The notes under the pieces are model-generated. The model ran no database searches and was not told the origin of the DNA. It saw only the letters and a program-made list of their open reading frames with translations. The translations under genes and the position numbers were made by a program. From positions 65,767,852 to 65,831,851 of the forward strand of contig NC_084463.1 in the NCBI RefSeq assembly GCF_027409185.1: a stretch of 64,000 nucleotides of DNA. The letters are read 5' to 3'. How positions within the stretch are numbered: position 1 is the stretch's first letter; the number at the start of each line of letters is the position of its first letter. This DNA comes from Cynocephalus volans (Eukaryota > Chordata > Mammalia > Dermoptera > Cynocephalidae). Below, one piece after another: positions 366-41,899 of this stretch.

Positions 366-419
366 ACAAGTGAATGCTCTATATTAAGGATCTGTTGAAC
401 TCTGGCCACAGTGATACAT

Positions 420-775: not shown

Positions 776-1160
776 ATAATCTCTTGTGGTAAAAAATGAC
801 TACATTTACCAGGAGTGGGATTAGATCAGAATTTCTTAATTAATATGCTAAGATAAGGTTCTTGTCACCTTGGGGTGGCCAGGCAGGGCCTGAGGAGGCC
901 TCTGGCTTGGAGCAGCCTTGTGCATTTTCCTCAGTGTGCTCTATAATAAACATGATTTTCTATGTGTGCAATCACATGAATAGAATTGGAAGTGCTATAG
1001 TAGAGTTGATATCCTAATAATTAATGCAAGGTAAGAGTTTTACTATGTTAGTCTGCTCTCTTTAATTTTAATACTTAGTTCAATATCAACTTCAGAATAA
1101 CCTTCTATAATTATAGAATAAAAAGTCTCCTTTTTTATCTACAGAGAGAAGAAAAAAATG

Positions 1161-1290
1161 GGCAAACAAACACACACACACACACACACATGAGGGTACT
1201 TCAAAAAGTTCATGGAAAGATTTGTATTCTCTTTTAATTCAATTTTTTCATAAATTTTTTGAAGTACCCTCATCTGTGTTTGTTTGTGTG
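1161..1290. repeat. Palindromic MITE-like element inside CA/TG arms
   Basis: TGAGGGTACTTCAAAAA at 1191-1207 is matched by its reverse complement at 1255-1273, with an imperfectly self-complementary centre. The termini resemble mariner-type MITE ends. The flanks also pair: CAAACAAACACACA on the left against TGTGTTTGTTTGTGTG on the right. The whole 130 bp can fold into a long hairpin. It starts about 100 bp past the FOLH1 stop codon and could lie in the 3' UTR of that gene. An ATTAAA on the minus strand at 1233-1238 falls in the loop. Confidence 0.6.
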
Positions 1291-1389
1291 TATATCCTTC
1301 AACTTTTTCAGTTAATCGATATTACCCGTCATGATTCTCTCTGAGTGATATACCATACAAATTCAACACGGGTTCTGTAAAGAACCCTT

Positions 1390-1579
1390 TTAGGCTACTT
1401 CTCTCAAAGTACCTGCTGCAGCCTGTACTGTAAAGGATGCGACAGAAATCTGTCTCTTCACTTCGCCCCAAGCTTTGGAAGGGTCCACTTTGCTTTCAAT
1501 ATCAAACAGAGCATCATAAATTCCTGGGAAGGATTCCCCTGCATACTTGTTGTGGCTGCTTGGAGCATAGATGATATGC
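1390..1579 (-). CDS. FOLH1: FOLH1 exon 19 (terminal coding exon)
   Basis: 190 nt of coding sequence. The acceptor is CAACAG before base 1579 and the first G completes a split codon. It begins [19 protein letters not shown] and ends in TLREVA then TAA (minus-strand stop at 1392-1390). It holds H689 of the charge-relay remnant and K699/Y700, which contact the glutamate side of the substrate in the human enzyme. Differences from my recollection of human are mild (Y to S, E to G, S to R near the C-terminus). The dimer-forming helical domain is complete. Confidence 0.95.
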
Positions 1580-19500: not shown

Positions 19501-22500
19501 ATCCATGTTGTTGCAAATGGGAGTATTTCATTCTTTTTTTATAGCAGAGTAGCATTCCATGATATATATATTTCCTTATGCAATCTTCCATTGATGGACA
19601 TTTAGGTTGGTTCCATGCCTTCATTTACAACAGATCGAAATGCCCAGACAAAGCATTAAGTGGAGACCCTCTGGTCTCTGCCGTGATTGTAAAAAACTAG
19701 GTCACTGGAAAAGAGATTTCCACAATAGAAAAAGGGCCCTGAAATTTTTTTCTCAACTTCCTCCATCCCCACCAGAAAATCAGTCTCAATGAACTGAACA
19801 CTTCCTAAGAGTCATCCCTTTTGGAAATGTAAATTTAGGCTTTTCTAGCTAACAATTGCTTAATGTGATAGAACAATTAATTAAAGGATTGATATTCTAA
19901 AAGTAAAAGAACTAGATAAATGTTTATAAAAGTTAGGTTGTGAGATCAAACAGGTACAAATCTTGAGCTCAGAGAAAAAATATAAGTAATTTCTTTCCCG
20001 CATAAAAATTGTTTTGTCTGCCACTCGAGGAACAGAAACAAAGCAAAAAAGAAAAAACAAAATCACCTGTAAATGGTTTTGTTTTCTTTTGGTTTTTGGT
20101 TTTTTAAAATACTTCCCTGCCCACACCCACATTGACTATTTCAACAAACCAGACTGGTAAACAAAAGAAAAATGTGTTGTTAAAGATTCAAGGCTGCTTG
20201 AATGTTTTGGTTTTCTTATACAATTCAGCTGCTATTAGCTAAAATGTAAACATTAGAAGTTTAACACTAAATTCATTTGAAAACGAAAAAAGTGTTTTAC
20301 CTATTGGGGCAAATAAAGTTTATCCATGTAAACAGGTACCATGTTGTCTGAAGTATAATTTAAATCCAAGTGTCTTTATAAACCAGTGAGTTTGTATTAC
20401 TATGTTCTACTGTTTTATGACTAAAATTAAAAAATTAAAACGAGGAAATCTGCTTCTATCCATGTGTTTGTGTATTTGTCTCTATGATTTTATGCTGTGT
20501 AATATTTTTTATCAAAATATATGAAAGAGCTATGATTATTTATTTTTTTAAAGTATGTAAACCAAATATTTTATCAAAAATGTAGTAACTAACCCAAATG
20601 TTTTTAGTTCATGTGACTTAAGTAAATCTTTGATAAATAAGCTGGTTTTTAAATTTGTGGATAAAATTTTTTAAATGTCTTCAGAATGGTCAACATACAT
20701 TTTTGCCTGGGTCAGACGATTTTAAATTTGTCTCTGTTAGATGTTTAAAGGTGTCAGGGTTTGACACAAAGATTATAAAACTCTTAATCCAGCCTAAAAA
20801 CAGAATGATCTTGTTTAATATTGTTGGTTTATTGACCACAGCTATATCTTCTGAGTTACAGGCAAAATACCCATTTTTTTTTAACTTTAAGATTATTGTG
20901 TAGGTGAACACCTGATATTCACAGGCTATAATGATGTCTATCAGCAAAATAACTTGAAATGATGACTAGCTTTGTCTAACATCTCAGTTTATATGAGCAA
21001 TCTAGTTATAATTGATAAAATAAATAAATTAGGTGAATGTGAATAAGTTAATTTACAAATGAACTTTTCATGTAATTTGAAATTTCAAAGTTATGTCATG
21101 TTAAATTAAATGATTGATATTCATTAAATGTCTGTGTCATTTCCAAATAAGTAAAATACTAATATGTGGCAGACAGTTCAAGATATCTTGATTTCTTGGT
21201 TTTCACTAGATATTAAGGTTACTAAGAGTTAAAAATTCTAATTAATGTCTAATTTTCTATACAAAATGTATTGAAAAATTAAGGTGTGTTTTTGATAAGG
21301 AAAATTATAAGAATGGCTTAAAATATGTCTTTATTAAGGAAAAGAATAATTTTATCTTAATTCAGAGGTTATTAAAGTGACCTACATGGTCACACCTAGC
21401 CTCTGTCCCACATTGATTTGTCCCTGGAAATCAGCACCTAGTTTTCTTATGTATACTCTTCTCAGTCAGAACTCCTCCTGTGTCTTTATTTAATTGGTAC
21501 CACTATAGTAAGGAGTATAAACCAGGGTTAAAATTAAGGAAAGCCATAGGACCAAGTCATGGATCAGCTACTGTACAAGTTGCATGACTTTGGTGGTTGA
21601 TATTCTTTCAGCTTGGTTTCCTCATTTTCAATATGACGATGGCAGACATAATGCTATTCAAATGCTCAGATACTGCCTTACTGTGACATGGAGAGGAATG
21701 AAGAAATGTGTGTAAACAGTTTGTTACATTTGATGCTCTACAGAGTGGATATTTATTATATGAAAAAATTAGATATAAAACAATGCCAATGTGTAACATA
21801 ATAATGGCACCTCAAGAAAACGTCATTTGTAGAATTTAGATTTTCTTAAATTATATGTAATCGTTTTTACCTCTTTTGTTAGGTTATATACCAAGCTGTA
21901 CATCAGTGGTGTACAGTCAACTCTCAGAGTGTAGTTTCCTGAAAAATAAGGAAATAGAAGATTGCTTTTTATTTCATTTATTTCTGAAATTCTTTTATTC
22001 AAAGACCGTTGTTAACTCCCTAGCCAGAATGATTCTCTTAAAACCTAAATTCAATTAAAACTCTCCAACAGTTCCGCATCTCACTCTATAAAATCCTCAT
22101 CTTCACCATGGCCCACTGTGCCACATATGAAATGACCCCAGGTCACCTCTCCAAATCTTCATCTCTTTACTCTGCCCAAGAATTCTGTCTCAGGGTCTTT
22201 GCACACACTGTTCCCTCAGCCTGGATCAGTGTTCTGCATTATATCTGTGTGCCTTATTCCTCCTCTCGTCTAATGTCACATTTTCTAAGAGGTTTCCCCT
22301 GACCACCCTACCAAACAGCACACTCTTCCCCACTCTCTGTCTTAACCACTCCATTTCTCTCTTAACGTTGGCTTATTTTTCTCCATATTACTCATTTAAC
22401 TAACATATCAAGTACATGTCTTTTTATTATCTGTCTTCCTACTAGAAAATAAGTTTCATGGGACTAGGCGCTCTATTTAACTTGCTGCCATAGCCCAGTG

Positions 22501-25500
22501 CTTTAAAACAGTTGTAGCATTTAGCATTCACCTAATACATATTTATTGTGAAAATGAATTTGTGAGCCAGGAGCCTTCTACCTGGTTCTGAATAGAGAGC
22601 AGACATGGCATTCCCATTCCTCAGGAGTTCAAGGGCTGGCAGGTGTGAAAGTCAAGAGAATCAGCCAGGAGAGGTGCTCTTGGGAGGCCTTGGGAGCACA
22701 GGGACGGGAGGCCAACTCAGGAGGACAGTGTGGGGGAGAGGAAGTTAAGACAACTTCACCAAGGGGGTGACTCTTGTACTGAGTTTTCTAGAACCAGAAG
22801 GAGACAGCTGAGCCAAAAGGAAATGGTAGTTTCAGCTATGGGCATAGCCTGTACAAATGCCCAGAAATATAATAGCACACGATACACTCAAAGGATGGCA
22901 AGTAGCTTTTATCCCAAACCTTAGGATCCATGTTTGGGAACAGAAAATGTTGAGGCTTTAGAAATAAATAGTGACACACTAGAAGGATTGCTTATGGAAC
23001 TTGAAAAGTTGATTTTAAAATTCTAAAATTCATCTGGAGGAATAAATGTGCACAAATAGCCAATGCAAGTTTTAAAAGAGAAAAAGTGCTTAAAAGAATA
23101 TCAATTAGGGAAGGGGGTAGATTGGGAGCAATTCTACAATTTAAATGCACATATTGCAGGACTAAACAATTATGTTTGTAGCGCTCTACCATCCCCTCTC
23201 CTTATATAGAAAAAAGCATGCAAATAAAAGGATATTTACTGCAACAAACTGAAGCGATCTGACCATCAACTAGAGAATTGGTACAAAAATTGTCCTATTG
23301 AATATATTGTGGCACGTTTCTTTGTTTTCCAGTGAAATAGATCCATATTTATTGATATGAAAAGTTTTCCATAATATGTCACTGAATGAAAAAAGAGCAG
23401 ATGCAGAACCATATAGCTGTAATATGATACCAAAAACGTGTAGAAAGGAGTGAGAGGCAATAGAGTGTAGTGGTTAGAAGGAAAAAGCTGAAACAGACCA
23501 GCTTGATTTGAGTCTAAGCTCAACATTACAGTAGCTGTGTGACCTTGGGAAAATTAATTTACTTTTCTGAATCTCAGTTTCCTCTTCAATACAAAAGAGA
23601 TAATAAAGCATACTTACCTTACAGGATTATTGTGAGTATTAAATAAATTTTTACATGTAAAGCATTTAAGACAGCACCTACTACACTTTTGGCATTCTGT
23701 GTAAGCTAAATTCTGTACTGTATAATAATGTCAACATGATGGAATCAATCCAAACAGAAGACATAGCACACTTGGAAAAGGGATTAAGTTTAAGAGTGGT
23801 TTGTGTTGGGAGTGCTATGGTTTGACTGTGTTTCTCAGAATTCATGCGTTAGAAATTTGGTCCCTGATGTGGCAGTATTGGAAACTGGAGCCTTTGAAAG
23901 GTGATTAGGTCAAGAAGCATTACTGCCACTTGCATGCTGGACTGGATTAATTCTCACAAGAGTGAGTGGGTTCTCCCTGTCACACGAGTGGATTAGTTCT
24001 CACTGGAATGATTAGTTCCCTAGAAAGCAGGGTGTTATAAAGCAAGGACACCCTCCTGTTTTCCCCCTTTCTCATGCGCCCACTTTCCCTTAGCCAGTAG
24101 CCTGAGAGGAGGAGGAAAAGACAACTGAAATGCACTGTGTAAACTAACTTTTAGGACAATGTAGTTCAGATGTGTGGACAAAGAAGACAATGTAAATGTC
24201 AAAATGACTCCATCAAGGTACCACGTCCCAATTGTTGACATGGAAAATGTACTAATACACTAAAGAAAATATTCTGAAAGTCCACCCTACACTCACATAT
24301 TCCTTCATTTTTTTGCATCCATGCCACAAATATTTACTTAATGAAATACTCCATGCCACAAATATTTACTTAATGAAAAACTAGAAATCAAGGAGTGGAC
24401 AAGCAAGACACTGTCTGTTCCCTGCTGAAGAATACTATCTATTGTGGGAGGCAGTTTATAAAACAAATAATTTCTTGAAAATGATAGCGATGAGTGCTAT
24501 GAAAATACGGCTTCTCTGAAAAAGTGACATTTCAGAGGAGACTGTAAGGATAAGAATCAAACAGGCAGAGAGGTACTGAAGAGCAGTCTGAGAATAGAGA
24601 ACAGCAGTTGCAATGGCTGGTACACTGCATTTGGTCACAGAATAGAAAGATTAGTGGAGCTGGAATACAGTGACAATGGACTCTTTAATTTTAGTGAAAT
24701 CAACTTGAGATGTCCTTTAGTTCACCTTTTTGCTTATTAAAACTGTATCCATTCTTCTATCTCAAATTCCTATTCCAATGCTTAAGCCTTTCTTGAAGTT
24801 GCTATTATTATTTCCTCTGAACTCCCAGAACAGTTTGATTACATCCCTCTTATAGCACCTCTGTATATTATAATTCAAGACTGATTTATTCTACCATCTA
24901 TACTGAGCCATAAACTCCTGAGTATAAGATCATTCCCTGCTAAGCTCTGACTCCTCTGAATCCCTGGAAAAGTACATTGTGCAGAGAGGAGCTCAGTAAA
25001 TTTTGTTAGAATTAATAAAAAAATTAAAAATGAAAATACTAGATAATAAATGAAATCTCAGAAATCAGTGTTTTTTTCAAAATTGGTATGCATGATATTA
25101 TGATGAAACTGAGGGTTAAATTTAAATGCTATTTTTCTACCCCATTCTAAATCATAAAATTATTTAGATCCATGACTTACTTATTCAACAGATAGTTAAT
25201 ACATTCCTGCCATATAAAAGGTAATCTGCCAGATGGAGCAAATCAAAAAATGCTGTTGTACTGAATTAGCACTCCATAGGGCAAAGCACATAAAAATTTT
25301 AAAGAATCTTTCAACTAGGGCTGCCACACGGCTGTGAGTCAGGGGTAGCAACCTGACAAACCAGCAGAAGATTCCCTAACCATACATTAATAGAATGCCT
25401 CCTGTGTTAGTGCATAATTTATGAACTAAACTGCTTATCATAGCATGATCACATCTTTTTTATGAGACAAATTATATTCACCTTCTATCGATGAATCAGC

Positions 25501-27093
25501 ATTAATATAGGCCACACCACGCTCTTGAAGGAGTCTGGAATTCTCCTATAATAAAAAGATAGAAAATTAGAAACATAAAGTTGTAACCCACCCTCTCACC
25601 CCCCACACCTCCCTGCACATCCAAATTTACTGTATGGAGATTTCTGATTTAGGCTGGTCCATGTTAAGCAAAAATTTGACATGTAAGATTCTCAAAAGAG
25701 AGTTACTTTGAAAGAATTTCAATAAAGATTATTGTTAAGAAACAACAGGAAAAACTTTTTTAAGGCTAGCATTTAAGGTGAAACTGTTCCTACACTTATG
25801 ATAAATGGAAAAGGAGTTAATTTCTTATCCATATTGTTGTTTATCCTTCAAAAAATTTTCTTAGCAAACATGAATGACTTAAGAGACTTTTCAGTGAAAA
25901 TCTTCCCATTAACATCTTACTATTTAAGCAAATATTCTTGCCTGATTCACAGGGAATGAGCTACTTCAAATTTACAGGTTGAAAAATGTATGAAGTTGAT
26001 GTCTCAGTGCCTGGAACATGATGTCAAGTTATCCTATGGGATGCTACCACCTACTGGTAATGTTTGATAATTGCACATTTTTAGAAAACTGACAAAAAGT
26101 GTAATAGTTTTTTTGAGATATCAATGTGGATTCTGAGTCTCCAAAACATGCAATTCCTAGGCATTTTGAGTGTATGATAGAAAATACAAAAAATATATTT
26201 TATCAAGTCTAAGTGATAAAAATAATTTGAAAGATACAAATCAAAGCCTCAAAATATCTAGACTCCTTCTAACATCAGCATAAATCTTTTTTGTAAAAGC
26301 TTCAAATAGGTCTACAGGAGCACTATTTTTTTTTCCCCAAACAAAATTGAAGTTTACAGGGTTTCACATAATACGTGGAGTATAGCAGGAGCCAAATAAA
26401 TATTTGCAGCATGACTGGAAGTAAATGGAATAAATATGAACCTTGCATGTATTTACAGCTAAAGCTTCTATTTCACAAAGCCAAAAATACATGCAGGTAA
26501 AATCACTTTTCAAGGAAACTAGTAAATATTATGTGATGGGACTTTCTGCCACACTTTTCACATTATTTAATATGGAGCAGGTCATTATGATATAAGGAAG
26601 ATACATTTGAAAAGTATACCTTATTGAACAAGTTCAAGGGGCCTTTAAATGAGGTTAGCTTTAGAAGCTATTTAGGAAAGAATAATAGAATCATGATAGA
26701 AATCAAACATATTTTGAGTATGTTGTCTAGTATAGCTACTTATTTACTACCACGCTTCTGGGAAATAAAGATAAATTAATTTTAACAATTGACATTAAGT
26801 GCCTCTAAAAAGCTCAAAGAAAACTTAGTTTTTCGGTGACAAAGGGATTTTTATTGCTGATTTTTGAATGAGGTTATATTGCTTCAGATTTTTTGGCAAA
26901 AACTTTGAATATTTTCTCACTTGATTCACTTGTCATTTTTACATGCTTAACAATTAAGCCCTAACTTTTATTATTATGAAAATTTATATTATAGCAAATT
27001 ATCAACTAACCTCTGCCCACTCAGTAGAACCAAGAAGACCAAATTCTTCTGCATCCCAGCTTGCAAATAAAATAGTTCTTCTAGGCCTCCATC
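1390..27093 (-). CDS. FOLH1: FOLH1 3' half (exons 11-19), glutamate carboxypeptidase II / PSMA, 5' half absent
   Basis: Nine exons on the minus strand encode a contiguous 338-residue C-terminal portion of an M28-family membrane zinc peptidase. In mammals this enzyme cleaves terminal glutamate from N-acetyl-aspartyl-glutamate and folate polyglutamates outside the cell. Residues fit FOLH1 rather than NAALAD2, for example [18 protein letters not shown] and [10 protein letters not shown]. Seen here: zinc ligands of the DAEEFG motif (E424/E425), D453 in NADSS and H553 in YHSVYE, the arginine patch (R534/R536), and the KYAGESFPG substrate loop (K699/Y700). Missing: everything before residue 409, that is cytoplasmic tail, membrane anchor, apical domain start and zinc ligands H377 and D387. 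Exon phases all agree and there is no stop before the terminal TAA. NOX4 exons occupy the place where exons 10-1 should be. As assembled this cannot encode an active enzyme. Confidence 0.93.
2927..3010 (-). CDS. FOLH1: FOLH1 exon 18, with net 9-nt deletion
   Basis: 84 nt instead of about 93. The acceptor is TTTAG before 3010 and the donor is GTAAG at 2926-2922. It reads [18 protein letters not shown] and then [10 protein letters not shown], where human has IDPLGLPDRPFYR. The pattern is explained by a 10-nt loss at about 2953/2954 and a 1-nt gain about 9 nt further along the gene, so the frame recovers. The last exon base is T instead of the usual G, giving AT|GTAAG, a weaker donor, and R688 becomes M. 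This could be decay after relaxed constraint, a lineage change, or a sequence error. Confidence 0.9.
3160..4140 (-). repeat. Probable ancient L1 fragments in FOLH1 intron 17
   Basis: The plus strand carries phrases typical of reverse-complement L1 ORF2, such as 'tctttccccattgatttctac' near 3970 and a 'tgtatcagtaccca' phrase near 4070. Similarity is patchy and no reading frame survives. The rest of the intron, 4141-4743, contains an unassigned, moderately GC-rich stretch at about 4280-4690 that looks like an old dispersed repeat. Confidence 0.35.
4744..4825 (-). CDS. FOLH1: FOLH1 exon 17
   Basis: 82 nt. The acceptor is TTTCAG before 4825 and the donor GTATGT is at 4743-4738. It encodes [20 protein letters not shown] and then QDFEKT, part of the C-terminal helical domain. 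It joins exon 16 through a split Asp codon (G|AT) and exon 18 through a split Asn codon (AA|C). No lesion. Confidence 0.95.
5121..5385 (-). CDS. FOLH1: FOLH1 exon 16
   Basis: 265 nt, the longest exon here. The acceptor is TTTGTAG before 5385 and the donor GTATGT is at 5120-5115. It starts [19 protein letters not shown] and includes the zinc ligand H553 in PLYHSVY. It continues through [20 protein letters not shown] and [18 protein letters not shown] (the S628 region) to KTYGVSF. It is 88 codons plus one base, with no gap against the family. Human has the peptide ELVEKFYDPMFKYHL where this has EPTF in place of DPMF. Confidence 0.97.
5386..7199. other. FOLH1 intron 15, left part, without recognised features
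   Basis: AT-rich intronic sequence between exon 16 and a long L1. I see no exon-like conserved stretch, simple repeat array or confidently assignable transposon. A (TA)-rich patch occurs near 6966-6976. Confidence 0.6.
7216..7677 (+). pseudogene. L1 ORF1p C-terminal fragment
   Basis: A 153-codon open stretch whose second half matches the RNA-binding and C-terminal domain of L1 ORF1 protein: [50 protein letters not shown] and [15 protein letters not shown]. The N-terminal coiled coil is absent. It is a transposon relic, not a host gene. Confidence 0.8.
8131..11760 (+). pseudogene. L1 ORF2p relic (endonuclease to C-terminus), many breaks
   Basis: It starts with [20 protein letters not shown], the L1 endonuclease N-terminus. 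Further pieces in different frames include EKIGKL-like linker sequence near 9190, the reverse-transcriptase region near 9480-10330, an [20 protein letters not shown]-like stretch near 10510-10600, and the Cys-rich tail region near 11400-11760 ([11 protein letters not shown] and a DEWIK block). Stops and frameshifts separate the pieces. No activity is possible. Confidence 0.82.
12151..12241 (-). CDS. FOLH1: FOLH1 exon 15
   Basis: 91 nt. The acceptor CTAATAG precedes 12241 and the donor GTGAGT is at 12150-12145. It encodes [18 protein letters not shown] and [12 protein letters not shown], containing the substrate-pocket residues N519, R534 and R536 and the Trp of the arene-binding site (W541) as numbered in human. 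The only clear difference from human in the stretch I recall is A to P before SGRARY. Its low end lies only about 35 bp from the tail of the adjoining L1. Confidence 0.96.
13070..13161 (-). CDS. FOLH1: FOLH1 exon 14
   Basis: 92 nt. The acceptor TTTGTGTAG precedes 13161 and the donor GTAAAC is at 13069-13064. It reads [17 protein letters not shown], then [14 protein letters not shown], matching the protease domain. It ends in a split Arg codon (AG|G) that exon 15 completes. No lesion. Confidence 0.95.
13162..14054. other. FOLH1 intron 13, part without recognised features
   Basis: AT-rich intronic DNA. No exon, array or confidently identified repeat is visible before the L1-derived block that begins near 14055. 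Confidence 0.55.
14055..16915 (+). mobile_element. Internally deleted LINE-1 in FOLH1 intron 13
   Basis: L1 in antisense to FOLH1. An ORF1-like part with the upstream leader comes first (about 14055-14760), then the ORF2 endonuclease start (near 15015: [14 protein letters not shown]-like, degraded). At about 15222-15240 the sequence jumps from the endonuclease directly to the post-reverse-transcriptase region (WKDNLCSW then [18 protein letters not shown]). It continues through the Cys-rich region to a 3' UTR ending near 16915. The jump removes about 1.9 kb of ORF2. A short shared word, AGATGGAAAGA, at the joint suggests microhomology. Many stops; dead element. Confidence 0.75.
17702..18102 (+). 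mobile_element. 5' LTR of a degraded endogenous retrovirus
   Basis: 401 bp beginning TGTCAAAC and ending GTTTGACA, a perfect terminal inverted repeat of eight bases with the TG...CA ends expected of an LTR. A primer-binding-like site and gag-like sequence follow in the correct order. No matching 3' LTR was recognised in the window. The element is on the opposite strand to FOLH1. Gag similarity suggests a class I (gamma-like) element; subfamily not assigned. Confidence 0.75.
18107..18124 (+). other. Putative retroviral primer-binding site
   Basis: TGGTGTTCAGAAGCAGGA lies four bases after the LTR end, starting with the TGG that pairs with the CCA end of a tRNA. I could not name the tRNA with certainty. 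Confidence 0.5.
19150..19620 (-). mobile_element. L1 3' end inserted within the retroviral gag remnant
   Basis: On the plus strand it reads as the reverse complement of an L1 3' end: A-rich tail remnants near 19150, a pyrimidine-rich 3' UTR, then ORF2 C-terminal sequence (CATGTTGTTGCAAATGG near 19504, and 'tggacatttaggttggttcca' at about 19594). The gag-like reading continues on both sides, so the L1 landed in the provirus. It is of the same old family as the L1 at 14-17 kb, judging by the shared 3' UTR word around 'catgaatat'. No clear target-site duplication. Confidence 0.7.
19800..21870. other. FOLH1 intron 12, AT-rich stretch without confident features
   Basis: No exon or clear transposon coding sequence. 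Parts of 19.8-21.3 kb may be untranslatable provirus remnant. At 20752-20768 a short palindrome-like TGTCAGGGTTTGACA resembles the ends of the LTR at 17.7 kb, but no LTR body accompanies it. Confidence 0.45.
21871..21938 (-). CDS. FOLH1: FOLH1 exon 13
   Basis: 68 nt. The acceptor TTTTTCAG precedes 21938 and the donor GTAAAAAC is at 21870-21863. It encodes [19 protein letters not shown] then TKE. It starts by completing the Gly codon begun in exon 12 (G|GA). One difference from human as I recall it is H to Y in SLVHNL. No lesion. Confidence 0.95.
22060..22560 (+). repeat. LINE-2 3' end
   Basis: Characteristic L2 order: a 'catggcccac' phrase, 'ttctgtctcagggtctttgca' near 22185, a 'cctcagcctggatc' phrase, 'ctgaccaccctacc', and the closing 'ttactagaaaataagtttcatggg' and 'agcccagtgc' phrases. 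It ends in a 'cacctaatacatatttattg' block. No reading frame remains. Confidence 0.7.
22565..22930 (+). repeat. Unassigned old dispersed repeat
   Basis: Moderately GC-rich stretch with the style of ancient mammalian interspersed repeats (phrases like 'gggctggcaggtgtgaaag', 'ctgtacaaatgcccag'). It shares its general pattern with 56700-57240 and with 24380-24640. I cannot name the family. Confidence 0.35.
22980..23455 (+). repeat. Old L1ME-type fragment
   Basis: It contains diverged ORF2 tail phrases ('aaaattcatctggaggaataaatgtgcac' split over 23018-23050) and an L1ME 3' end with 'gaacatattgtggc'-like and 'atgaaaagttttccataat' phrases near 23300-23370. No frame remains. Confidence 0.5.
23457..23700 (+). 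repeat. MIR SINE
   Basis: It follows the MIR consensus: 'tagagtgtagtggttagaa', a central 'agctgtgtgaccttggg' core near 23535, 'ctgaatctcagtttcctctt', a 'taataaagcatacttacctt' block and a 'gtaaagcatttaagacagcacc' tail. Confidence 0.8.
23815..24045 (+). repeat. MaLR-type LTR fragment (MST-like)
   Basis: It matches the start of a MaLR LTR: 'gctatggtttgactgtgtttc', 'aattcatgcgttagaaa', 'aggtgattaggtcaaga', then the repeated 'gtgggttctcc' and 'gtggattagttctcac' blocks and 'agcaaggacacc'. It lacks the 3' half. Confidence 0.65.
24319..24382. repeat. Tandem duplication, unit 32 bp, two copies
   Basis: The word CCATGCCACAAATATTTACT and the following bases to ATGAAA occur at 24319-24346 and again at 24351-24378, an offset of 32 bases. 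It is a local duplication in FOLH1 intron 12. Confidence 0.85.
25482..25545 (-). CDS. FOLH1: FOLH1 exon 12
   Basis: 64 nt. The acceptor TATTATAG precedes 25545 and the donor GTGAAT is at 25481-25476. It encodes [20 protein letters not shown] then EG, containing zinc ligand D453 in NADSS. It starts in phase 0 and ends on the first base of a Gly codon. No lesion. Confidence 0.95.
25546..27010. other. FOLH1 intron 11 without recognised features
   Basis: AT-rich intron. No exon, array or identifiable transposon is seen. Confidence 0.6.
27011..27093 (-). CDS. FOLH1: FOLH1 exon 11 (most 5' FOLH1 exon present)
   Basis: 83 nt. The acceptor ATTTTAG precedes 27093 and the donor GTTAGT is at 27010-27005. 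It encodes [20 protein letters not shown] then GSTEWAE, containing the catalytic Glu and zinc-bridging Glu of the WDAEEFG motif. Its first two bases complete a Gly codon from exon 10, which is not found anywhere in the window. Good splice sites show that the exon was part of a larger gene. Confidence 0.96.
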
Positions 27094-27609
27094 CTAAAAT
27101 ATGTGCATACATGTAAATGCTGAAAAAATTAATCATATACCCCAGACATTACTAAGCCCAAATTAGAAAAAACAAAAAACAAACAAACCAAAATGTCCCA
27201 GTGTGACCCCTTTCACCCTGGCATAATTTAGGTCAACAAGGAATTTCTAAACAGTCCTGCTCAGATATTGTGGGTAGGGATAGGACAGCTCAATATCTTT
27301 GAGCACCAAAAACCAACCCCATAAAAGAATTTTTTACAATCCTTTTTCCTCCCATAGAAAAGTGACTGTATGACCCCCATCCTAATTTCTACTTCTTTTC
27401 TCAGTAGGAAAGATTAATTTTCTATAGGTAAGAAAGAATCCCTCTAATGATTATCCACCGAAGTGGATGTTTTGGTATTCAATCAGTCACCTCTTCACTC
27501 CTATATGTCACACTACAGAGAGAGTGACAGCAGCTCAGTGGTTAGTATCTAATAACATTTTCTTGGACAATAGAAGCTAAAATTGTTTTCTTAAATTCCC
27601 GGCTTTGGG

Positions 27610-28154
27610 TCTATAAATCAACTTGGGTTTTTTCTTATAAAACTATGAATATTTCTGTTCAAATATTTATAGAAACATATGCTTTCATTTCTCTTAACAC
27701 TTTGGAGTTGAATGACTAGGTCATACAGTAGATAAATGCTTACTTTAAAAAAACTGACAAAGTGGCTATACTTTTTAATACTTTCACCAGCAGTATATGA
27801 ATGTTCCGGTACTTTCACCTACTCACCACTATTTATAAGGCAGCATGTTTTAATTTAAGCTATTCTAATAGGTCTGAAGTGACATTTTATTCTTGTTTCA
27901 GTTTATATTTCCCTAGTGATTAAAAATTAGTCATTTTTAGTATCTATTCAGTACTTATTCACCAACCATATATCATTTCTGGTGACATGTCTGTTCAATT
28001 CTCTTAACAGTATTTTATTGGACTGTTCATTTTCTTATTGAGTTTTGAGCATACTTTCTTGCGAAGTCTTCTATCTGATAGATGATTTCAAATACTTTCT
28101 TCTATCTTTTCATTCTCCTAACAGTGTCTTTGGATTGAAAGATGTTTGTTTTCC
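27610..28154 (-). repeat. Old L1 fragment (minus), cut at its right end by the young L1
   Basis: Reverse-complement L1ME-like ORF2 tail: 'tatgaatatttctgttca', 'atatgctttcatttctctt', 'caccagcagtatatgaatg', 'gtgacatgtctgttcaa' and 'gataga tgatttcaaatac' phrases in the expected order. The series stops at the 5' boundary of the young L1. It does not resume after 31150, where a different part of an L1 begins. Confidence 0.6.
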
Positions 28155-30922
28155 CAAAAAACAATTCAAAAGATCAACGAATCAAAAAGTTGGTTTTTTG
28201 AAAAGATAAATAAAATTGACAAACCATTAGCATGGCTAACAAAAAAAAGAAGAGAGAAGACTCAAATAACAAAAATTAGAAATGAAAAAGGCGATATTAC
28301 AACTGATTCATCTGAAATACAAGGAATCATTCGAGACTACTATAAACAACTATACGCCAACAAATTTGAAAATCTGGAGGAAATGGATAAATTTCTGGAC
28401 ACACACAAGCTCCCAAAACTGAACCGTGAAGACGTAGAAAATTTGAACAGACCAATAACAATAAAGGAGATTGAAGCTGTTATCAGAAGGCTCCCAACAA
28501 AGAAAAGCCCAGGACCAGATGGATTCACAGCAGAATTTTACCAAACATTCAAAGAGGAATTGACACCGATTCTTTACAAACTATTCCAAAAGATTGAAAT
28601 GGACGCAAATCTCCCAAACTCATTCTATGAAGCAAACATCATCCTGATACCAAAACCAGGTAAAGATATAACCAAAAAAGAAAACTACAGGCCGATATCC
28701 TTGATGAATATAGATGCAAAAATCCTCACTAAAATACTAGCAAACAGAATACAGCAACACATACATAAAATTATTCATCACGATCAAGTGGGATTCATCC
28801 CAGGGATGCAAGGTTGGTTCAACATACGCAAATCAATAAATGTGATACACCATATTAATAAACTCAAACACAAGGACCATATGATCATCTCTATAGATGC
28901 TGAAAAAGCATTTGATAAAGTTCAGCACTCATTCATGACAAAGACCCTCTATAAGTTAAGTATAGAGGGAAAGTATCTCAACATAATTAAAGCCATATAT
29001 GACAAACCCACTGCCAATATCATCCTGAATGGGGAAAAGCTGAAAGCTTTTCCTTTAAGAACAGGAACTAGACAAGGATGCCCACTCTCACCACTCCTAT
29101 TCAACATAGTGTTGGAAGTACTAGCCAGAGCAATCAGAGAAGAGAAGGAAATAAAGGGCATCCAGATTGGAAAAGATGAAGTCAAACTGTCCCTGTTTGC
29201 AGATGACATGATCCTATATATCGAACAGCCTAAAACTTCTACAAAAAAACTGCTGGAATTGATAAATGATTTCAGCACAGTAGCAGGATACAAAATCAAC
29301 ACACAAAAATCAGTAGCATTTCTTTTCTCCAATAGTGAACATGCAGAAGGAGAAATCAAGAAAGCCTGCCCATTTACAATAGCCACCAAAAAAATAAAAT
29401 ACTTAGGAATTGAGTTAACCAAGGAGGTGAAAAATCTCTATAATGAGAACTACAAACCACTGCTGAGAGAAATTAGAGAGGATACAAGAAGATGGAAAGA
29501 TATCCCATGCTCTTGGATTGGAAGAATCAACATAGTGAAAATGTCCATACTACCCAAAGTGATATACAATTTCAATGCAATCCCCATCAAAATTCCAAAG
29601 ACATTTTTATCAGAAATGGAAAAAACTATCTAGATATTTATATGGAATAATAAAAGACAATGCATAGCCAAAGCAATGCTGAGCAAAAAAAGTAAAGCTG
29701 GAGGCATAACACTACCTGACTTTAAGCTATACTACAAAGCTATAATAACCAAAACAGTATGGTACTGGCATAAAAACAGACACACTGATCAATGGAATAG
29801 AATAGAGAATCCAGAAATCAACCCACACACTACTGCCATCTGATCTTTGACAAAGGCACCAAGCCTATTCACTGGGGAAGGGACTGCCTCTTCAGCAAAT
29901 GGTGCTGGGATAACTGGATATCCATATGCAGGAGAATGAAACTAGATCCATACCTCTCACCGTATACGAAAATCAACTCAAAATGGATTAAGGATTTAAA
30001 TATACACCCTGAAACAATAAAACTTCTTAAAGAAAACATAGGAGAAACACTTCAGGAAATAGGACTGGGCACAGACTTCATGAATACAACCCCAAAAGCA
30101 CGGGCAACCAAAGGAAAAATAAACAAATGGGATTATATCAAACTAAAAAGCTTCTGCACAGCAAAAGAAACAATTAACAGAGTTAAAAGACAACCAACAG
30201 AGTGGGAGAAAATATTTGCAAAATATACATCTGACAAAGGATTAATATCCAGAATATATAAGGAACTCAAACAACTTTACATGAAGAAAACAAGCAACCC
30301 AATTAAAAAATGGGCAAAAGAGCTAAGTAGGCATTTCTCTAAGGAAGATATACAAATGGCCAACAGACATGAAAAAATGCTCAACATCACTCAGCATCCA
30401 GGAAATGCAAATCAAAACCACACTGAGATACCATCTAACCCCAGTTAGGATGGCTAAAATCCAAAAGACCCTGAACGATAAATGCTGGCGAGGTTGCAGA
30501 GAAAAAGGAACTCTCATACATTGTTGGTGGGACTGCAAAATGGTGCAGCCTCTATGGAAAATGGTATGGAGGTTCCTCAAAGAATTGCAGATAGATCTAC
30601 CATACGACCCAGCTATCCCACTGTTGGGAATATACCCAGAGGAATGGAAATCATCAAGTCGAAGGTATACCTGTTCCCCAATGTTCATCGCAGCACTCTT
30701 TACAATAGCCAAGAGTTTGAACCAGCCCAAATGTCCATCATCAGAGGAGTGGATACGGAAAATGTGGTACATCTACACAATGGAATACTACTCAGCTATA
30801 AAAATGAATGAAATACTGCTATTTGCAACAACATGGATGGACCTTGAGAGAATTATATTAAGTGAAACAAGTCAGGCACAGAAAGAGAAATGCCACATGC
30901 TCTCACTTATTGGTGGGAGCTA
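28155..30922 (+). pseudogene. L1 ORF2p relic with reverse transcriptase domain
   Basis: An open stretch of about 490 codons runs to a TAG at 29631-29633. It contains the RT motifs [22 protein letters not shown], a [14 protein letters not shown] block and [11 protein letters not shown] (the FADD catalytic motif). Against the copy at 59-61 kb there is a CAG to TAG change at 29631, one base lost near 29830 and two bases lost near 30369. The C-terminal Cys-rich region continues to 30922. The endonuclease domain is missing through 5' truncation. Confidence 0.9.
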
Positions 30923-31150
30923 AAAATTAATATATAAATTCACACACACACACACACACAAAAAAAAAAAACGGGGGGGGGAGAAGATATAACAACCACA
31001 ATTACTTGAAGTTGATACGACAAGCAAAGAGAAAGGACATTGTTGGGGGGGAGGGGGGCGGGAGGAGGGAGGGAGGTTTTGGTGATGGGGAGCAATAATC
31101 AGCCACAATGTATAACGACAAAAGAAAATTAAAAAAAAAAAAAAATATAT
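28155..31150 (+). mobile_element. 5'-truncated young L1 at the FOLH1/NOX4 junction
   Basis: About 3 kb of the young L1 family also seen at 45.9 and 59-61 kb. It has ORF2 from the linker before the reverse transcriptase to the stop, a 3' UTR with (CA)n, a G-rich run near 30973-31075 and an A-tail at 31132-31145 followed by (TA)n. It starts inside ORF2 near ATTCAAAAGATCAACGAATC. I could not find a target-site duplication flanking it, unlike the other two young copies. It is in reverse orientation to both host genes. Confidence 0.88.
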
Positions 31151-31164
31151 ATATATATAGTGCG

Positions 31165-31560
31165 GAAAAAATATGGAACAAACAGGTCCTCATTCCCCCT
31201 CCCCCCAGGCTCTGGCAATCACCTTACTCCTTTACGTCTCTGTGAATTAAACTACTCTAGGTGCTTCTTATAAGAGGAATCATACAATATTTGTCCTTTT
31301 GTTTCTGGCTTATTTCACATAGCATAATGTCTTCAAAATTCATCCATATTGCAGCATGTGTCAGAATTTCCTTCCTTTTTAAGACTGAATAACATTCCAT
31401 TATATGTGTACACCACATTTTGTTTATTCATTCATCTATTGATGGACATTTAGGTTGCTTCCATCTTTTGGCTACTGTGAGTAATGATTCTATGAACACT
31501 GGTGTACAAATATCTGTTTGAGTCCCTGCTTTTAATTATTCTAGGTATACGCGCAGAGCC
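31165..31560 (-). repeat. Old L1 3' end (minus)
   Basis: Reverse-complement L1 3' end: 'ccccctccccccaggctctggcaatcacc' (31195-31224), 'tctggcttatttcacatagc', 'aataacattccattatatg', 'tgatggacatttaggttgc' and 'gagtccctgcttttaatt'. Its last part overlaps in consensus position with the first part of the fragment at 27610, so the two are not halves of one interrupted copy. Confidence 0.65.
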
Positions 31561-32130
31561 TATCTTTTATTTGCATAAGCCCAGAGGCCTTATGTAATTT
31601 GCCTCACCCCAGAAAAGCACACACACCATCTCTCTAATTGCCCCTCCTACCACTCTTCTCCTCGCTTACTCTGCTTCATCCAAACAAGACTTCCTCTTCC
31701 TCCAACACACCGAACATACTATTGCATCAAAACCTTTGCCTGTGAAGTTAGGTTCCTTTATTTTTGTCCCCAAGATATGTACCTAGTCTGTCTCTTCACT
31801 TCTCTCAAGTCTGTACTAAAACAGCATTTTGTTTGGTGGGCATTACCAAACACAATATAAATTAATATGTCCTCTACCATTTATGCTGCTGTACCCTACA
31901 TTCTTTTCATTCTTTGTCCTAATCAGAATCTCAGAATCAGACATCTCATGTATTTTTATAGAATTGTTGTCTATCTGCCTCACTTAGGGATGTAAAGCCT
32001 GTAGGAAGAGACTTTTTTTGTTTTGTTTTGTTTGTTTGGTTACCTGATGTTTCTCCAGCTCCTAGAGCAATCCTTATTCTTAGTATGCAGTTAATAAATA
32101 TTTGTTGAATGACAGAATGACTGGCTGACT
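31561..32130 (+). repeat. LINE-2 remnant and flanking unassigned sequence
   Basis: 31640-32130 has L2-like phrases, notably near 31980-32110 ('ttagggatgtaaagcctgtagg' degenerate, 'gctcctagagcaatcc', 'gcagttaataaatatttgttgaat'). The stretch 31561-31640 is unassigned. NOX4 exon 17 is not found here. Confidence 0.5.
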
Positions 32131-32164
32131 GAATGAATACACACATAAAATGACATTTATAATG

Positions 32165-32620
32165 ATATCCATGCAGCAGTCTTTGCAATAAAAAAATAAA
32201 TATTCAACATCAGGAAATTTTTAAACAAGCTAGATACATCCAAGCCATGAAATACCCTACAGCAGTGAAAAGAATGTTAGCTCTACATGTCTAATACTAA
32301 AAAAAATTCAAGACATAGTAATAAGTTAAAAAAAAAAAGCAATCGGCAGAACAATATAAACAGTAAGATGCAATTTATAGTACACTCATCAGTTACTCAT
32401 TGAGTGGGGAAGGTAGTAAAAAACTTTATTTCAATTGTTTGAAATACAGAAAAGATGCATATGTGTATTACTTGTATAATTCGAATAAAGAAAGGTAAAT
32501 AAATAGATAAATAAAATGTTACAGGTAGGATAGGTGAAGAATGTCTGCTTTTATCCCTGTAAAAAATAAAACTTAAATCTAGGATTTTCAAGATTCTTCA
32601 TAATGCAGCAAAAAGTCTGG
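32165..32620 (+). repeat. Old L1ME-type 3' end
   Basis: Diverged phrases such as 'ccatgaaataccctacagcagtg', 'aaaaagcaatcggcagaacaat' and the low-complexity tail near 32490-32515 fit L1ME 3' ends. The sequence up to NOX4 exon 16 at 33039 has nothing else that I recognise. Confidence 0.4.
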
Positions 32621-33038
32621 TGATGGTCTATTTGGAATATTAAAGGTGGATATCAGGGATAAGAGCTATGAGAACAATGAATGGAAGATGTTGTAGAAAG
32701 TGTCTGCTGATGTCTTCAGCCATATGCACATAATTGTATGTTAAGCATCCTATGTTATAACATAGAAATGAATGTTTCTATGTTACAATATGTCATAGAT
32801 CTATATGCTTACCCATAAATATCCATATCTGAACAGATGTGTACCTAATTATTAACAGATGTTATCTAGGCTTTTTAAAAATATTTGAGACTTTTTTCTT
32901 TCTTTGTTATTTATCTTCATAATTTCTATATGCAGATAAGTACTTTATTCTACAGCAAGCATTTATTCCTTTTGTAATATGAAAAAAACTATTTTTTAAT
33001 TTAAAAAACTGCAAAACTAAAAATAATCCTAATGTTAC

Positions 33039-33147
33039 CTTGTTATGCAATACACAGAGTAAGTCTGCAAACCAATGGAAGGATTGTATGTCTCTGCACA
33101 CCCAAATAAAGTACAGTCTTCTAAGCTTGTATGGCTTCCAGTCATCC
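33039..33147 (-). CDS. NOX4: NOX4 exon 16 (human count), last NOX4 exon present
   Basis: 109 nt. The acceptor TTTTAAAG precedes 33147 and the donor GTAACA is at 33038-33033. It encodes DDWKPYKLRRLYFIWVCRDI then QSFHWFADLLCVLHNK, ending in phase 0. Relative to human as I recall it, R to H in SFRWFAD and M to V in LLCML are the only differences. No lesion. Confidence 0.95.
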
Positions 33148-35486
33148 CTTTAAAATTAAAATAAAGCGATAGTGATAAGAATGGCAAACAAAAAAAACTG
33201 AAGAATACCTATATTCTTCAAACTTTGCTTTTCATTAGAAAGCAAGCAATAGAAAATCAGTCATTTATATTCTAACATCTGATATAGCACTTACAATAAC
33301 TCACAAACGAATTTAGTATGCAATATGCTGACTCAAAGACATGGCACACATTATAAATTTGTGTTTATACTTGTGAATATCATATGCATATAATCTTTCC
33401 AGTTGAAGGTCATAGACTGAACTCCTGGGTCAGAATAATATTGGCCCCTGTATCTCAGAAAAACAAGTTCTGTTTTCTGTGAATTCTGTCACTGTGCAGG
33501 GCTCCAAATATCATTTGGTCTTGCCCTAACTTCCAAGAAAAATGAACCAAAACCATTCCAAAAAGTTGGTTGTTTATCCCCTTCTTAATAATTATTAAAG
33601 AAAGAAATTTCACAACCAAGTATGGTTGTGATTCCAGCAACTTATAATTCTGAGCCTGGATTCCTATTTAAAATTATGAAGTAGGCTTGAAGCTAAAAAA
33701 TGTTCTTCCTTTTTCATAACATTAGGTATCCAAATAACTTGTAATGTGTTGTCAGAAACAAATGATTTCTGACTTGGAATATGGTTATTTTTGTAAGAAC
33801 CTCCACAAATTCTCAAATTTACATCTAGCATTTAAAATAGAAATAAAACAACATTCAAACACATTGCTTCAACTTATCATTTCTTTTTGGTACTCCATAA
33901 AACAGATTTTAATGAAAATTGTGTCTACTTGAAAAGTGAATGGAATTGATTTGAGAGTAACTTCCTGATGTCATTTTGTGTTTTCACAACAATTAATATT
34001 AATAATCAATTAACTTTTGCTTATAATTTTGAAGCTGAAATAACTGAAGGAATATTTCCTGGTTAAGCAATATCACCTTTTAAAGTTCTTCTCTTTTGGC
34101 CATTGTAAATTTGCTAAGTAATAAACCAAAAAATAATGTGTTCATTTATCATCTTCACAGAAAAGCTTTTCCTGGCCATATTTCTACTATAAACCCAGCC
34201 CTAGATTTTTCTGTTTGTTTGGTGGCTGGCCAGTTTAGGTTTCTGAACCCTTGACCTTGGTGTTCTAACATCATGCCTTAACCAACTGAACTAACTGGAC
34301 AGCCACCAGTCCTTGATTTTTATATCCCATTATTCTGTCTTCTTTAAATTCTAATATATTTTTAAAAGATTCTATTTATAAATTTCCCATTGCTTTATTT
34401 TTCACTTGCCTCATTAGAAGGTAAGCTTTTTTAAGGGCAGGGATGCTGTTTTCACTCATTGCAGTATTCCCAGCACCTTTCAAACTGATTGGCACATGGG
34501 TACTCAACATATTTGTTGATGAATGAATGAGTAGTGCCACTTACCACTGATGAAGAGGTAGAGAATTGAAGGAAGGTGGTGACTGACTGTTAACAGAGCA
34601 AAAGGACGGAGGAAGGCATAATTGTGATCCTGACATATTTTTACAAAAACAGCACGCTGGGAGCAAATTATTCCCCTCATTAAATAGTAAATGGAACTCC
34701 TTGGACAATGAGTAGAAGAAATTATTTCATACTACAAAGAAAGATATCTGAAATATTGGCAGTTCTCTATTTGGAGTAACAAAATGGATCAAAATGACAT
34801 ACAGCAGGGTGTTGAGTATTGATGCAAATGGAGTTACTCCAATGCCTCCAGCCACGCAGAGGCTAACTTCATAGTTCAGTGATTCCTCGAAGGGACTTCC
34901 AAATGGACCATCGATATACAGCCTGCAGAGAAGGCAGACAAAGGTGAGAAAAATAAAATGTTAAATTCATTTTCTATAGCATGTAGCAAACATGATGAAT
35001 TCAATTTATGGGCTTTGGGATGGCTCAGGCCTTATTTCATTGTTTCTCATAGTGATAAGCCTAAAGGAATAAGAAATTTTGTTTATGAACTGTCAATATT
35101 AAAGTAAGTCCACCTGTTTGCAAGCATTCCTTTTTTGAGAGAAACATTAATCAAAAGTGTAGAGAAATGTCGACCAAGCCGAATAGCTAAGGACAAGTTA
35201 AAGCTCTGATCATATTGTAATACTATATTTGGCTAAATTAAAATACCAAATGCTTTACTGTGTCTATATTCAAAAAATAATTCCCCTTTGATGGCAGGGT
35301 CAGTAGCGGAAATATTTACTTAAACATTTACGATGTGAAGAGAAAAATCATAGAAAGAAGGAAAAGAATTTAAAACTGCTGCTCTCTTGTCCTAGTTAGG
35401 TTCATAAATATACAAACAGCTGAAGAACAATCACAAAGGAAGCTCTACTTACTCTACTTGTGCTCATGTATTTGTGTGTGTGCGTG

Positions 35487-41500: not shown

Positions 41501-41628
41501 CCCTGTCCATTTCCTTCTCCATACACAGTAAACTCCTCTTGCTTACTTGGGATAATTTCTAGATTGAACAAATGGCAGAATCTCAGAGTCTTGAGTAGAT
41601 GGAGGCAGTAGTAAATCTCGGAATCGTT
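33039..41628 (-). CDS. NOX4: NOX4 exons 14-16 (NADPH oxidase 4), 3' end absent
   Basis: Three exons encode a contiguous C-terminal dehydrogenase segment of NOX4, the constitutively active membrane NADPH oxidase that makes hydrogen peroxide with p22phox. They correspond to about human residues 379-482, between the FAD-binding part and the final NADPH-binding part. CVAGGIGVTPFASIL, the NADPH-binding glycine motif, is present. Phases agree at each junction. Downstream of exon 16, toward low coordinates, the two last coding exons should follow (FWQENRPDYV... and the CCGPNSL region up to the terminal Phe-Ser). I do not find them; instead FOLH1 exon 11 follows at 27093. Exons 1-13 are presumably beyond 64000. 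As assembled the protein would lack 96 residues required for catalysis. Confidence 0.93.
33148..34210. other. NOX4 intron 15, part without recognised features
   Basis: AT-rich intron. No exon, array or confidently identified repeat is seen before the small SINE at 34211. Confidence 0.5.
34211..34310 (-). mobile_element. Short tRNA-derived SINE (monomeric CYN-like)
   Basis: The reverse complement reads as a tRNA-like unit: CAGTTAGTTCAGTTGGTTAA (A-box region), then GGTCAAGGGTTCAGAAACC (B-box-like GGTTCNANNCC), then ACTGGCCAGCCACC and a CAAACAAACAG tail. Near-identical 11-bp flanks, CCTAGATTTTT at 34200-34210 and CCTTGATTTTT at 34311-34321, are a probable target-site duplication. This fits the tRNA-derived monomer described for colugo CYN SINEs. 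It is not a functional tRNA gene. Confidence 0.7.
34385..34545 (+). repeat. LINE-2 3' end
   Basis: L2 tail phrases: 'cctcattagaaggtaagc', 'agggcagggatgctgtt', 'cccagcacctttcaaac', 'ggcacatgggtactcaacatat' and a (GAAT)n end. Confidence 0.7.
34803..34922 (-). CDS. NOX4: NOX4 exon 15 (human count)
   Basis: 120 nt. The acceptor CTCTGCAG precedes 34922 and the donor GTATGT is at 34802-34797. It encodes LYIDGPFGSPFEESLNYEVS then LCVAGGIGVTPFASILNTL, which is the conserved GGIGVTP NADPH-binding motif. The first G completes the Lys codon from exon 14 and the last two bases start a Leu codon finished in exon 16. The peptide matches human as I recall it, with no lesion. Confidence 0.97.
34923..39479. 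other. NOX4 intron 14, left part
   Basis: AT-rich intron. A (TG)n run is at 35471-35516 and a smaller mixed GT/GCAC run near 38219-38258. A T-run is at 36106-36120. No exon or clearly assignable transposon is seen in the rest. Confidence 0.5.
35471..35516. repeat. (TG)n microsatellite
   Basis: About 46 bp of TG repeats interrupted by CG near its start. Confidence 0.95.
39480..39700 (-). repeat. MIR SINE (minus)
   Basis: Reverse-complement MIR layout: 'aaccctgggtattaggtatc', 'tcatcccctttcatacaggtgga', 'gagacacagagatag' and 'gacacagaatcagccag' blocks in order. Confidence 0.65.
39848..40200 (+). repeat. MaLR-type LTR (MST/MLT1-like)
   Basis: It begins 'acagactgaatgcatgtgtacccc', continues through 'ggaaggtaattaggccat' and 'catgatgggaatagtgccc', and ends 'ccagaactgtgagaaataaat', 'taagtcacccaatctgtggc' and 'tatagca'. 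This is the standard MaLR LTR plan, including its AATAAA. Confidence 0.75.
41547..41628 (-). CDS. NOX4: NOX4 exon 14 (human count)
   Basis: 82 nt. The acceptor TTTTAACAG precedes 41628 and the donor GTAAGC is at 41546-41541. It encodes RFRDLLLPPSTQDSEILPF then VQSRNYP. It starts with two bases finishing a Glu codon and ends with two bases of the Lys codon that exon 15 completes. Conservative differences from human: S to T and I to V. No lesion. Confidence 0.95.
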
Positions 41629-41899
41629 CTGTTAAAAGAAAAATAAATATCAACCTGTGAAAAAATAAAAGTCATAAAAATAATTTCAAAATGGAATTAT
41701 TTCCTATTGTTATCTTTTGTTCATTTTCACTGTGCATCCTTTATTAGAAATTTAACCACCATCTTATGTACTACTGAAACATATGTCTATTTCTCATTAC
41801 TGGCTACATATGTCCTTACAATTAAAATATTGCAATCTCTTCACATATAGAAATAGCAGGTTTTCATTAGTAGAGACTAATAAAATCTTATAGTTGAAA

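Follow-up and report, generated by a model that had tools for sequence, protein, structure and literature searches.

In human and mouse, NOX4 and the FOLH1 locus are divergent neighbours, and human FOLH1 and FOLH1B lie at 11p11.2 and 11q14.3, one of the two copies being without N-terminal exons. The human clade of tripartite-motif genes TRIM43/48/49/64 occupies 11q14.3 and the surroundings of the centromere of chromosome 11; it has been described as a reservoir from which segmental duplications arise, with two human TRIM segments at 96% and 99.6% identity; the available portion of that paper's main text names neither FOLH1 nor NOX4 (Han et al., 2011, PMC3228819). Joints within L1 (long interspersed element 1) sequences have been surveyed as products of non-allelic homologous recombination (NAHR), the available part of the survey covering directly oriented L1s of more than 4 kb lying less than 10 Mb apart (Startek et al., 2015, PMC4344489). 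Our literature search returned nothing linking FOLH1, NOX4 and segmental duplication, and nothing on point for FOLH1/FOLH1B duplication. Here we describe a 64,000-nucleotide stretch (the window; C4:65,767,852-65,831,851, C4 being the contig name used throughout) of the flying lemur Cynocephalus volans, searched within an assembly of 2.81 Gb in 130 contigs, in which the 3' half of FOLH1 and a part of NOX4 lie on either side of an L1. An initial annotation had taken this order as the product of one inversion that split both genes or, failing that, of a misjoin. We read the window, with a probability of roughly 0.76, as a mosaic of recent segmental duplications on one chromosome, assembled in at least two steps and including an L1-L1 exchange in a duplication hotspot.

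As in the human FOLH1/FOLH1B pair (the human side being general background), FOLH1 is duplicated within a chromosome and has a copy without N-terminal exons, whereas the flying lemur has seven 3'-end copies and its own break in FOLH1 intron 10. The locus also resembles the human chromosome 11 TRIM reservoir, as far as that account was available, in carrying young duplications around TRIM43/48/49/64-clade genes on one chromosome, some of them inverted (Han et al., 2011, PMC3228819); it differs in belonging to another mammal, with an apparently independent recent burst (0.3-1.2% between copies), and in that the pieces carry FOLH1 and NOX4 exons. It shares with LINE-LINE NAHR, in the portion of the survey consulted, a joint inside an L1 built from two directly oriented L1s, and departs from it in the roughly 2.5 kb of shared L1, the distance of about 20 Mb and the one parental L1 that was not found (Startek et al., 2015, PMC4344489).

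The window was compared by tblastn with the human FOLH1 and NOX4 proteins, exons being numbered as in the initial annotation, with FOLH1 exon 11 corresponding to amino acids (aa) 409-436. Its features are as follows.

1390-27093, minus strand: FOLH1 exons 19-11, coding for aa 409-750; this copy of the 3' half is one of the seven FOLH1 3' ends on C4, from tblastn and genome searches.
1390-1579, 2927-3010, 4744-4825, 5121-5385, 12151-12241, 13070-13161, 21871-21938, 25482-25545 and 27011-27093, minus strand: edges of the FOLH1 exons.
27186-27188, no strand: joint J1, from FOLH1 intron 10 to block X; three nucleotides, AAC, fit both sides.
27186-28153, plus strand: block X, 968 bp, part of a duplicated block and 98.5-99.6% identical to seven other copies, with an eighth at 80%.
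28154-31147, plus strand: putative hybrid L1 containing joint J2, from comparison with the L1 at 86.48 Mb.
31148-64000, minus strand: partial NOX4, beginning in intron 16, reaching intron 13 and running on farther; it opens a copy of C4:86.17-86.48 Mb in inverted orientation that is 317 kb or more in length.
33039-33147, minus strand: NOX4 exon 16 (aa 447-482), 94% identity by tblastn; the same exon is present at 86.48 Mb.
34803-34922, minus strand: NOX4 exon 15 (aa 406-446), 98% identity by tblastn.
41547-41632, minus strand: NOX4 exon 14 (aa 378-406), 93% identity by tblastn, the exact acceptor base being uncertain.

The matches were all on the minus strand, with nine FOLH1 exons (aa 409-750) over 27,094-1,393 and three NOX4 exons (aa 378-482) over 41,632-33,039, in agreement with the shared orientation noted previously. 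Identities as aligned were 50-100% for FOLH1 (E 3e-6 to 6e-48), the low values arising because the alignment overruns the exon, and 93-98% for NOX4 (E 4e-12 to 1e-19); these E-values exclude chance matches. A PDB search with single exons returned glutamate carboxypeptidase 2 for FOLH1 (aa 542 onward; E 6e-53) and the NADPH-oxidase family for NOX4 (aa 406-446; top match dual oxidase 1, E 2.7e-9). The tract 27,094-33,038 had been described as containing neither FOLH1 exon 10 nor NOX4 exon 17, and tblastn likewise found neither of these exons there, nor NOX4 exon 18, so that no hidden exon upsets that description. Once the edges are corrected, an AG acceptor precedes each of the nine FOLH1 exons, the eight internal donors all read GT, and exons 11-19, when joined, give an open frame of 338 aa; exon 18 (2927-3010) carries a private 10-bp deletion and 1-bp insertion (net -9, frame kept) that none of the six other copies shares. 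The FOLH1 piece is without the first exon and the membrane anchor (the anchor, like the zinc ligands, being a feature we presume for FOLH1), and the NOX4 copy is without its C-terminal exons. FOLH1 exons 11-19 and the NOX4 copy lie on one strand with NOX4 upstream; a hypothetical splice joining NOX4 exon 16 directly to FOLH1 exon 11 would shift the frame and reach a stop codon once 47 foreign residues had been added, whilst one that skipped exon 11 and joined exon 12 would remain in frame to the FOLH1 stop. Judged from the sequence, both copies are likeliest to be non-functional partial passengers.

Both genes are present elsewhere on C4. FOLH1 3' ends, counted by a profile search with the TFR_dimer family followed by DNA comparison of the loci, occur at 57.12, 62.99, 63.48, 65.77 (the window), 84.34, 84.68 and 86.13 Mb, and a FOLH1 protein search of the genome placed the exon for aa 542-633 at these seven loci as well, among the best 60 of its 135 candidates. 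The count leaves aside a gene at 83.45 Mb, 75% identical to FOLH1, which we take to be NAALAD2, together with the weaker hits that lie at C4 160.32-160.33 Mb. A genome search with the NOX4 protein, in which 60 of 60 candidates were scored, gave three loci on C4: 86.339-86.497 Mb (plus), the window locus (minus) and 63.22-63.27 Mb (minus). The first matches aa 17-339, 377-407 and 444-578, exons 17-18 included, and is the only one with exons for aa 478-578; the window locus matches aa 17-483 from C4 65.947 to 65.801 Mb and nothing past aa 483; the third is partial, beginning at aa 17. In that search aa 340-376 were without a match at any of the three loci, as were aa 1-16. On the other side, FOLH1 at 86.13-86.19 Mb (minus) matches aa 73-393 and the greater part of aa 510-750 among the best 60 of 135 candidates, and aa 437-462 and the following exon were read in the DNA of the locus. 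C4 86.13-86.50 Mb, some 20 Mb from the window, thus holds what is apparently a complete divergent pair, FOLH1 (minus) and NOX4 (plus), which is the arrangement of human and mouse and probably carries the function. A second intact pair had been named in advance as the finding that would point to a duplicate, and this pair appears complete by its exon matches.

The similarity to this region is that of a segmental duplication, that is, sequence other than a transposon, of more than 1 kb and at least 90% identity, in at least two places. Window positions 1-3,084 recur in six other places at about 97-99.6% when gaps are not counted (94.6-99.2% with gaps); the copies in the window and at 57.12, 62.99, 84.34 and 84.68 Mb are 0.3-0.75% apart, and these five lie about 3% from those at 63.48 and 86.13 Mb, the fuller copies, which have exons upstream of FOLH1 exon 11 (as far back as aa 138 in the DNA examined). 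Positions 31,426-34,928 and 61,735-64,000 are at least 99.5% identical to one other place, with about 0.25% substitutions from the 86 Mb locus over 31,148-34,900 and five mismatches in 2,267 (0.22%) over 61,735-64,000. The divergent pair at C4 86.13-86.50 Mb supplies the donor copy expected of such a duplication. For 13 exon anchors, the first NOX4 exon 16 and the last FOLH1 aa 213-276, the sums of the window-side and 86 Mb positions fall between 152,280,580 and 152,288,439, varying by at most 8 kb over 317 kb; C4 65.80-66.12 Mb is therefore an inverted duplicate of 86.17-86.48 Mb and collinear with it. The block reaches the FOLH1 exons for aa 73-276 at C4 66.10-66.12 Mb, where matches extend to aa 309; a match to FOLH1 aa 1-40 at 66.096 Mb scores as one of the old FOLH1-like family described below, has no listed 86 Mb counterpart and was left out of the anchors. 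The block differs from the 86 Mb locus by 0.9% (7/781) at NOX4 aa 17-53 and by about 1% (7/735 and two gaps) at FOLH1 aa 73-140, an exon with at least four recent copies, at 63.42, 66.10, 66.68 and 86.18 Mb (best 60 of 135 candidates). Part of the order expected under the inversion of the initial annotation, with NOX4 exons running on to aa 17-53 (65.947 Mb) and, opposite, FOLH1 aa 73-309 (66.103-66.120 Mb), is present, but the genes are not split.

Eight anchors at 63.22-63.48 Mb also stand inverted and collinear to 86 Mb (sums 149,607,450-149,610,052). This stretch appears to be a second inverted FOLH1-NOX4 copy, its FOLH1 as full as that at 86 Mb in the exons found and 0.5% from it, its NOX4 consisting of the first exons only. 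A further copy of the FOLH1 5' half lies at C4 66.68-66.70 Mb, 0.4% from the 66.10 Mb copy over 786 bp, and no recent-type sequence from the exon 10 side of FOLH1 was found there among the 7 of 7 candidates of the intron 10 search.

The foreign 968-bp block X lies between FOLH1 and the L1 and is absent from the initial annotation; there are therefore two joints, not one. J1 lies 92 bp from FOLH1 exon 11, where the FOLH1 side reads ...ACAAACAAAC, the X side ...TATGAACCAAAATG and the window junction ...ACAAACCAAAATG, AAC (27,186-27,188) being common to both. BLAST aligns the fuller FOLH1 copies up to 27,191, with bases differing from 27,189 on. A genome search with window 27,010-28,150 (best 40 of 326 candidates) placed the whole of J1 in at least four places, C4 57.144, 62.972, 65.795 (the window) and 84.648 Mb, and X without the FOLH1 part (27,186 onward) at 3.062, 65.363, 66.575 and 83.873 Mb, at 98-99%; a ninth place, at 83.61 Mb, carries the same portion at 76-80% identity. 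All seven near-identical X copies continue past 28,153 into a sequence X', whereas the window departs there, as it does from the 80% copy. X' was read over about 24 kb at 57.14 Mb and aligned over 24 kb (84.65 Mb) and 19 kb (62.97 Mb), and in each of the four remaining copies the comparison covered 1.5 kb; no NOX4 exon was detected within about 24 kb past the joint in the three other copies of J1. At 57.14 Mb, Pfam matches two domains in X', SPRY in an open frame (E 3e-13) and a B-box barely past its cut-off (E 4e-5), and among the 46 protein matches of the SPRY frame, many of them nameless, the tripartite-motif names are all TRIM43-, 43B-, 64-, 64B- or 64C-like.

L011 7167-7679 and L010 (fetched C4 stretches): TRIM43/64-like gene pieces adjoining FOLH1 3' copies.

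The sequence shared among these places shows the first step, in which the 3' half of FOLH1 became linked through microhomology to a block that carries a TRIM43/64-like gene, a unit now in at least four places.

L1 similarity is detectable in the window from 28,158 to 31,147, and the window has another L1 relative at 96%. A genome search with window 31,160-33,160 gave one other near-identical place, C4:86,479,569-86,481,565, among the best 40 of 11,299 candidates, the remainder matching the old L1 part only, at about 80%. At 86.48 Mb, NOX4 exon 17 is accompanied by the same L1 with ATATATAGTGCG on both flanks, a normal target-site duplication marking a clean insertion, and that L1 begins at the base equivalent to window 28,639. 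The window L1 shares its right end but has 485 extra bases at the 5' side (28,154-28,638) and another left flank, and ATATATAGTGCG stands on its NOX4 (right) side only. Substitutions between the two L1s number 7/362 (1.93%) over 28,639-29,000, 5/640 (0.78%) over 29,001-29,640 and 6/1,507 (0.40%) over 29,641-31,147, with 5/2,013 past the L1, so that divergence drops towards the NOX4 side (Fisher p 0.027 and 0.0046). From this pattern the window L1 is best read as a hybrid whose 3' part came from the insertion in NOX4 intron 16 and whose 5' part came from another, longer L1. With X on its left flank and NOX4 intron 16 on its right it has the build of an L1-L1 NAHR product, the NOX4-side parental L1 being the one identified at 86.48 Mb. 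A simple L1 insertion at 28,153 was considered and rejected, there being no matching target-site duplication and no resumption of X' afterwards; a FOLH1 break inside the L1 was likewise rejected, the break mapping to 27,186-27,188. The initial annotation had placed the joint at the L1, which holds for the NOX4 joint, J2; the FOLH1 break is 0.97 kb off, does not involve NOX4 and occurs in four copies.

In a second step, two L1s of the same orientation would have exchanged, linking the FOLH1-X unit to an inverted copy of about 317 kb whose source is the FOLH1-NOX4 region at 86 Mb and whose start lies within the L1 of NOX4 intron 16. The duplications, both joints, the inverted collinear block with its apparently complete donor, and the putative hybrid L1 can be read in the DNA itself; we infer that J2 arose by L1-L1 homologous recombination or by template switching within the L1, and not by an assembly error. 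Replication template switching of the FoSTeS/MMBIR type (fork stalling and template switching/microhomology-mediated break-induced replication) into the L1 homology is a variant of the same explanation that we consider possible though rather doubtful: the microhomology at J1 is typical of such events, the locus is a many-piece mosaic and none of the eight other X copies has a parental L1 at X, whereas the divergence gradient along the L1 is the trace expected of homologous exchange, and the data separate the two poorly. A single inversion that broke a sole FOLH1 and a sole NOX4 and exchanged the ends of the two would fit the order and orientation of the locus, including the FOLH1 5' exons past NOX4; it is nonetheless highly improbable, and is refuted unless the 86.13-86.50 Mb region with its apparently complete FOLH1 and NOX4 is misassembled. 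A balanced inversion leaves no intact copy and carries a reciprocal joint, and that joint (FOLH1 exon 10 beside NOX4 exon 17), which the initial annotation had proposed to look for elsewhere in the genome, was not found: FOLH1 intron 10 past the break occurred only in the two fuller copies and, at 81%, in five old ones (7 of 7 candidates), and NOX4 exons 17-18 are at the 86 Mb locus only. The two joints are moreover separate, with different neighbours, the FOLH1 break being common to three further copies free of NOX4 exons over the stretch read.

Several observations weigh against L1-L1 exchange between duplicated blocks and some of them favour an assembly misjoin, in which a genuine FOLH1-X copy would have been linked through the L1 to the NOX4 region of an alternate haplotype. 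J2 was seen once and lies in a young L1 with the 96% relative inside the window; the X-side parental L1, which would have been inserted at 28,153, is in none of the eight other X copies read; and near J2 there are two NOX4 copies only, exon 16 included (60 of 60 candidates; best 40 of 11,299), which at 0.22-0.25% apart are close enough for two alleles. The crossover signal consists of 18 substitutions, and the two Fisher cut points were picked after seeing the data. The completeness of the donor pair was judged by exon matches, and FOLH1 aa 1-72 are not among the matches listed at 86 Mb (best 60 of 135 candidates). The shared L1 of about 2.5 kb is shorter than the more than 4 kb, and the distance of about 20 Mb between the J2 loci greater than the 10 Mb, of the consulted part of the LINE-LINE survey (PMC4344489). 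If the assembly searched is that of the Philippine flying lemur from the Vertebrate Genomes Project (VGP; GCA_027409185.1), it is haplotype-unresolved with documented errors at the IGH locus (PMC12090573). The attached block, however, is inverted, about 20 Mb distant and collinear for 317 kb up to the FOLH1 5' exons, and at its FOLH1 end the divergence is about 1% and there are at least four recent copies (best 60 of 135 candidates), more than two alleles could supply; that the region duplicates is shown by the further partial NOX4 at 63.22-63.27 Mb. There is no N anywhere in the window, hence none across J1 or J2, and a 3-kb L1 is far shorter than HiFi reads (15-25 kb in the portion of PMC12090573 consulted, if used here). 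A misjoin, previously offered as the alternative to inversion, could apply to J2 alone, the FOLH1 break lying outside the L1, and we consider it unlikely, but a good deal less so than the inversion.

Under the preferred reading of the window as a mosaic of duplications, what looks like the loss of two genes of medical relevance becomes a recent gene duplication, and annotating FOLH1 or NOX4 from the window alone would wrongly call both broken. It also gives a second lineage with a very recent duplication of the FOLH1 and TRIM43/64-clade region, and opens the question of whether the same sequence features destabilise this neighbourhood across mammals. We tentatively suggest, as an idea with somewhat less than even odds, that the FOLH1/NOX4/TRIM43/64 neighbourhood is a duplication factory that several mammal lineages inherited and that fired independently here and in African apes, dispersing FOLH1 halves, TRIM genes and NOX4 over a single chromosome through microhomology and L1 exchange, the window, with its possible in-frame splice of NOX4 exon 16 to FOLH1 exon 12, being one product.

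Taking about 2.2e-9 substitutions per site and year as the mammalian rate, divergences of 0.25-1% would correspond to about 0.5-2.5 million years and 3% to about 7 million years, as an estimate only; gene conversion could make the copies look younger than they are. The 84.34 Mb FOLH1 3'-end copy has the exons for aa 510-562 and 542-633 and matches the window over 1-3,084; it departs from the window sequence between window-equivalent 12 and 24 kb, and in the 30 kb where exons 11-12 were expected only L1 matched the window. An old FOLH1-like family has five copies, at C4 57.24, 65.26, 83.67, 84.55 and 2.96 Mb, which are about 20-27% diverged around exon 11 and less than 1% among themselves, and which are near X blocks, about 97-105 kb off in four cases.

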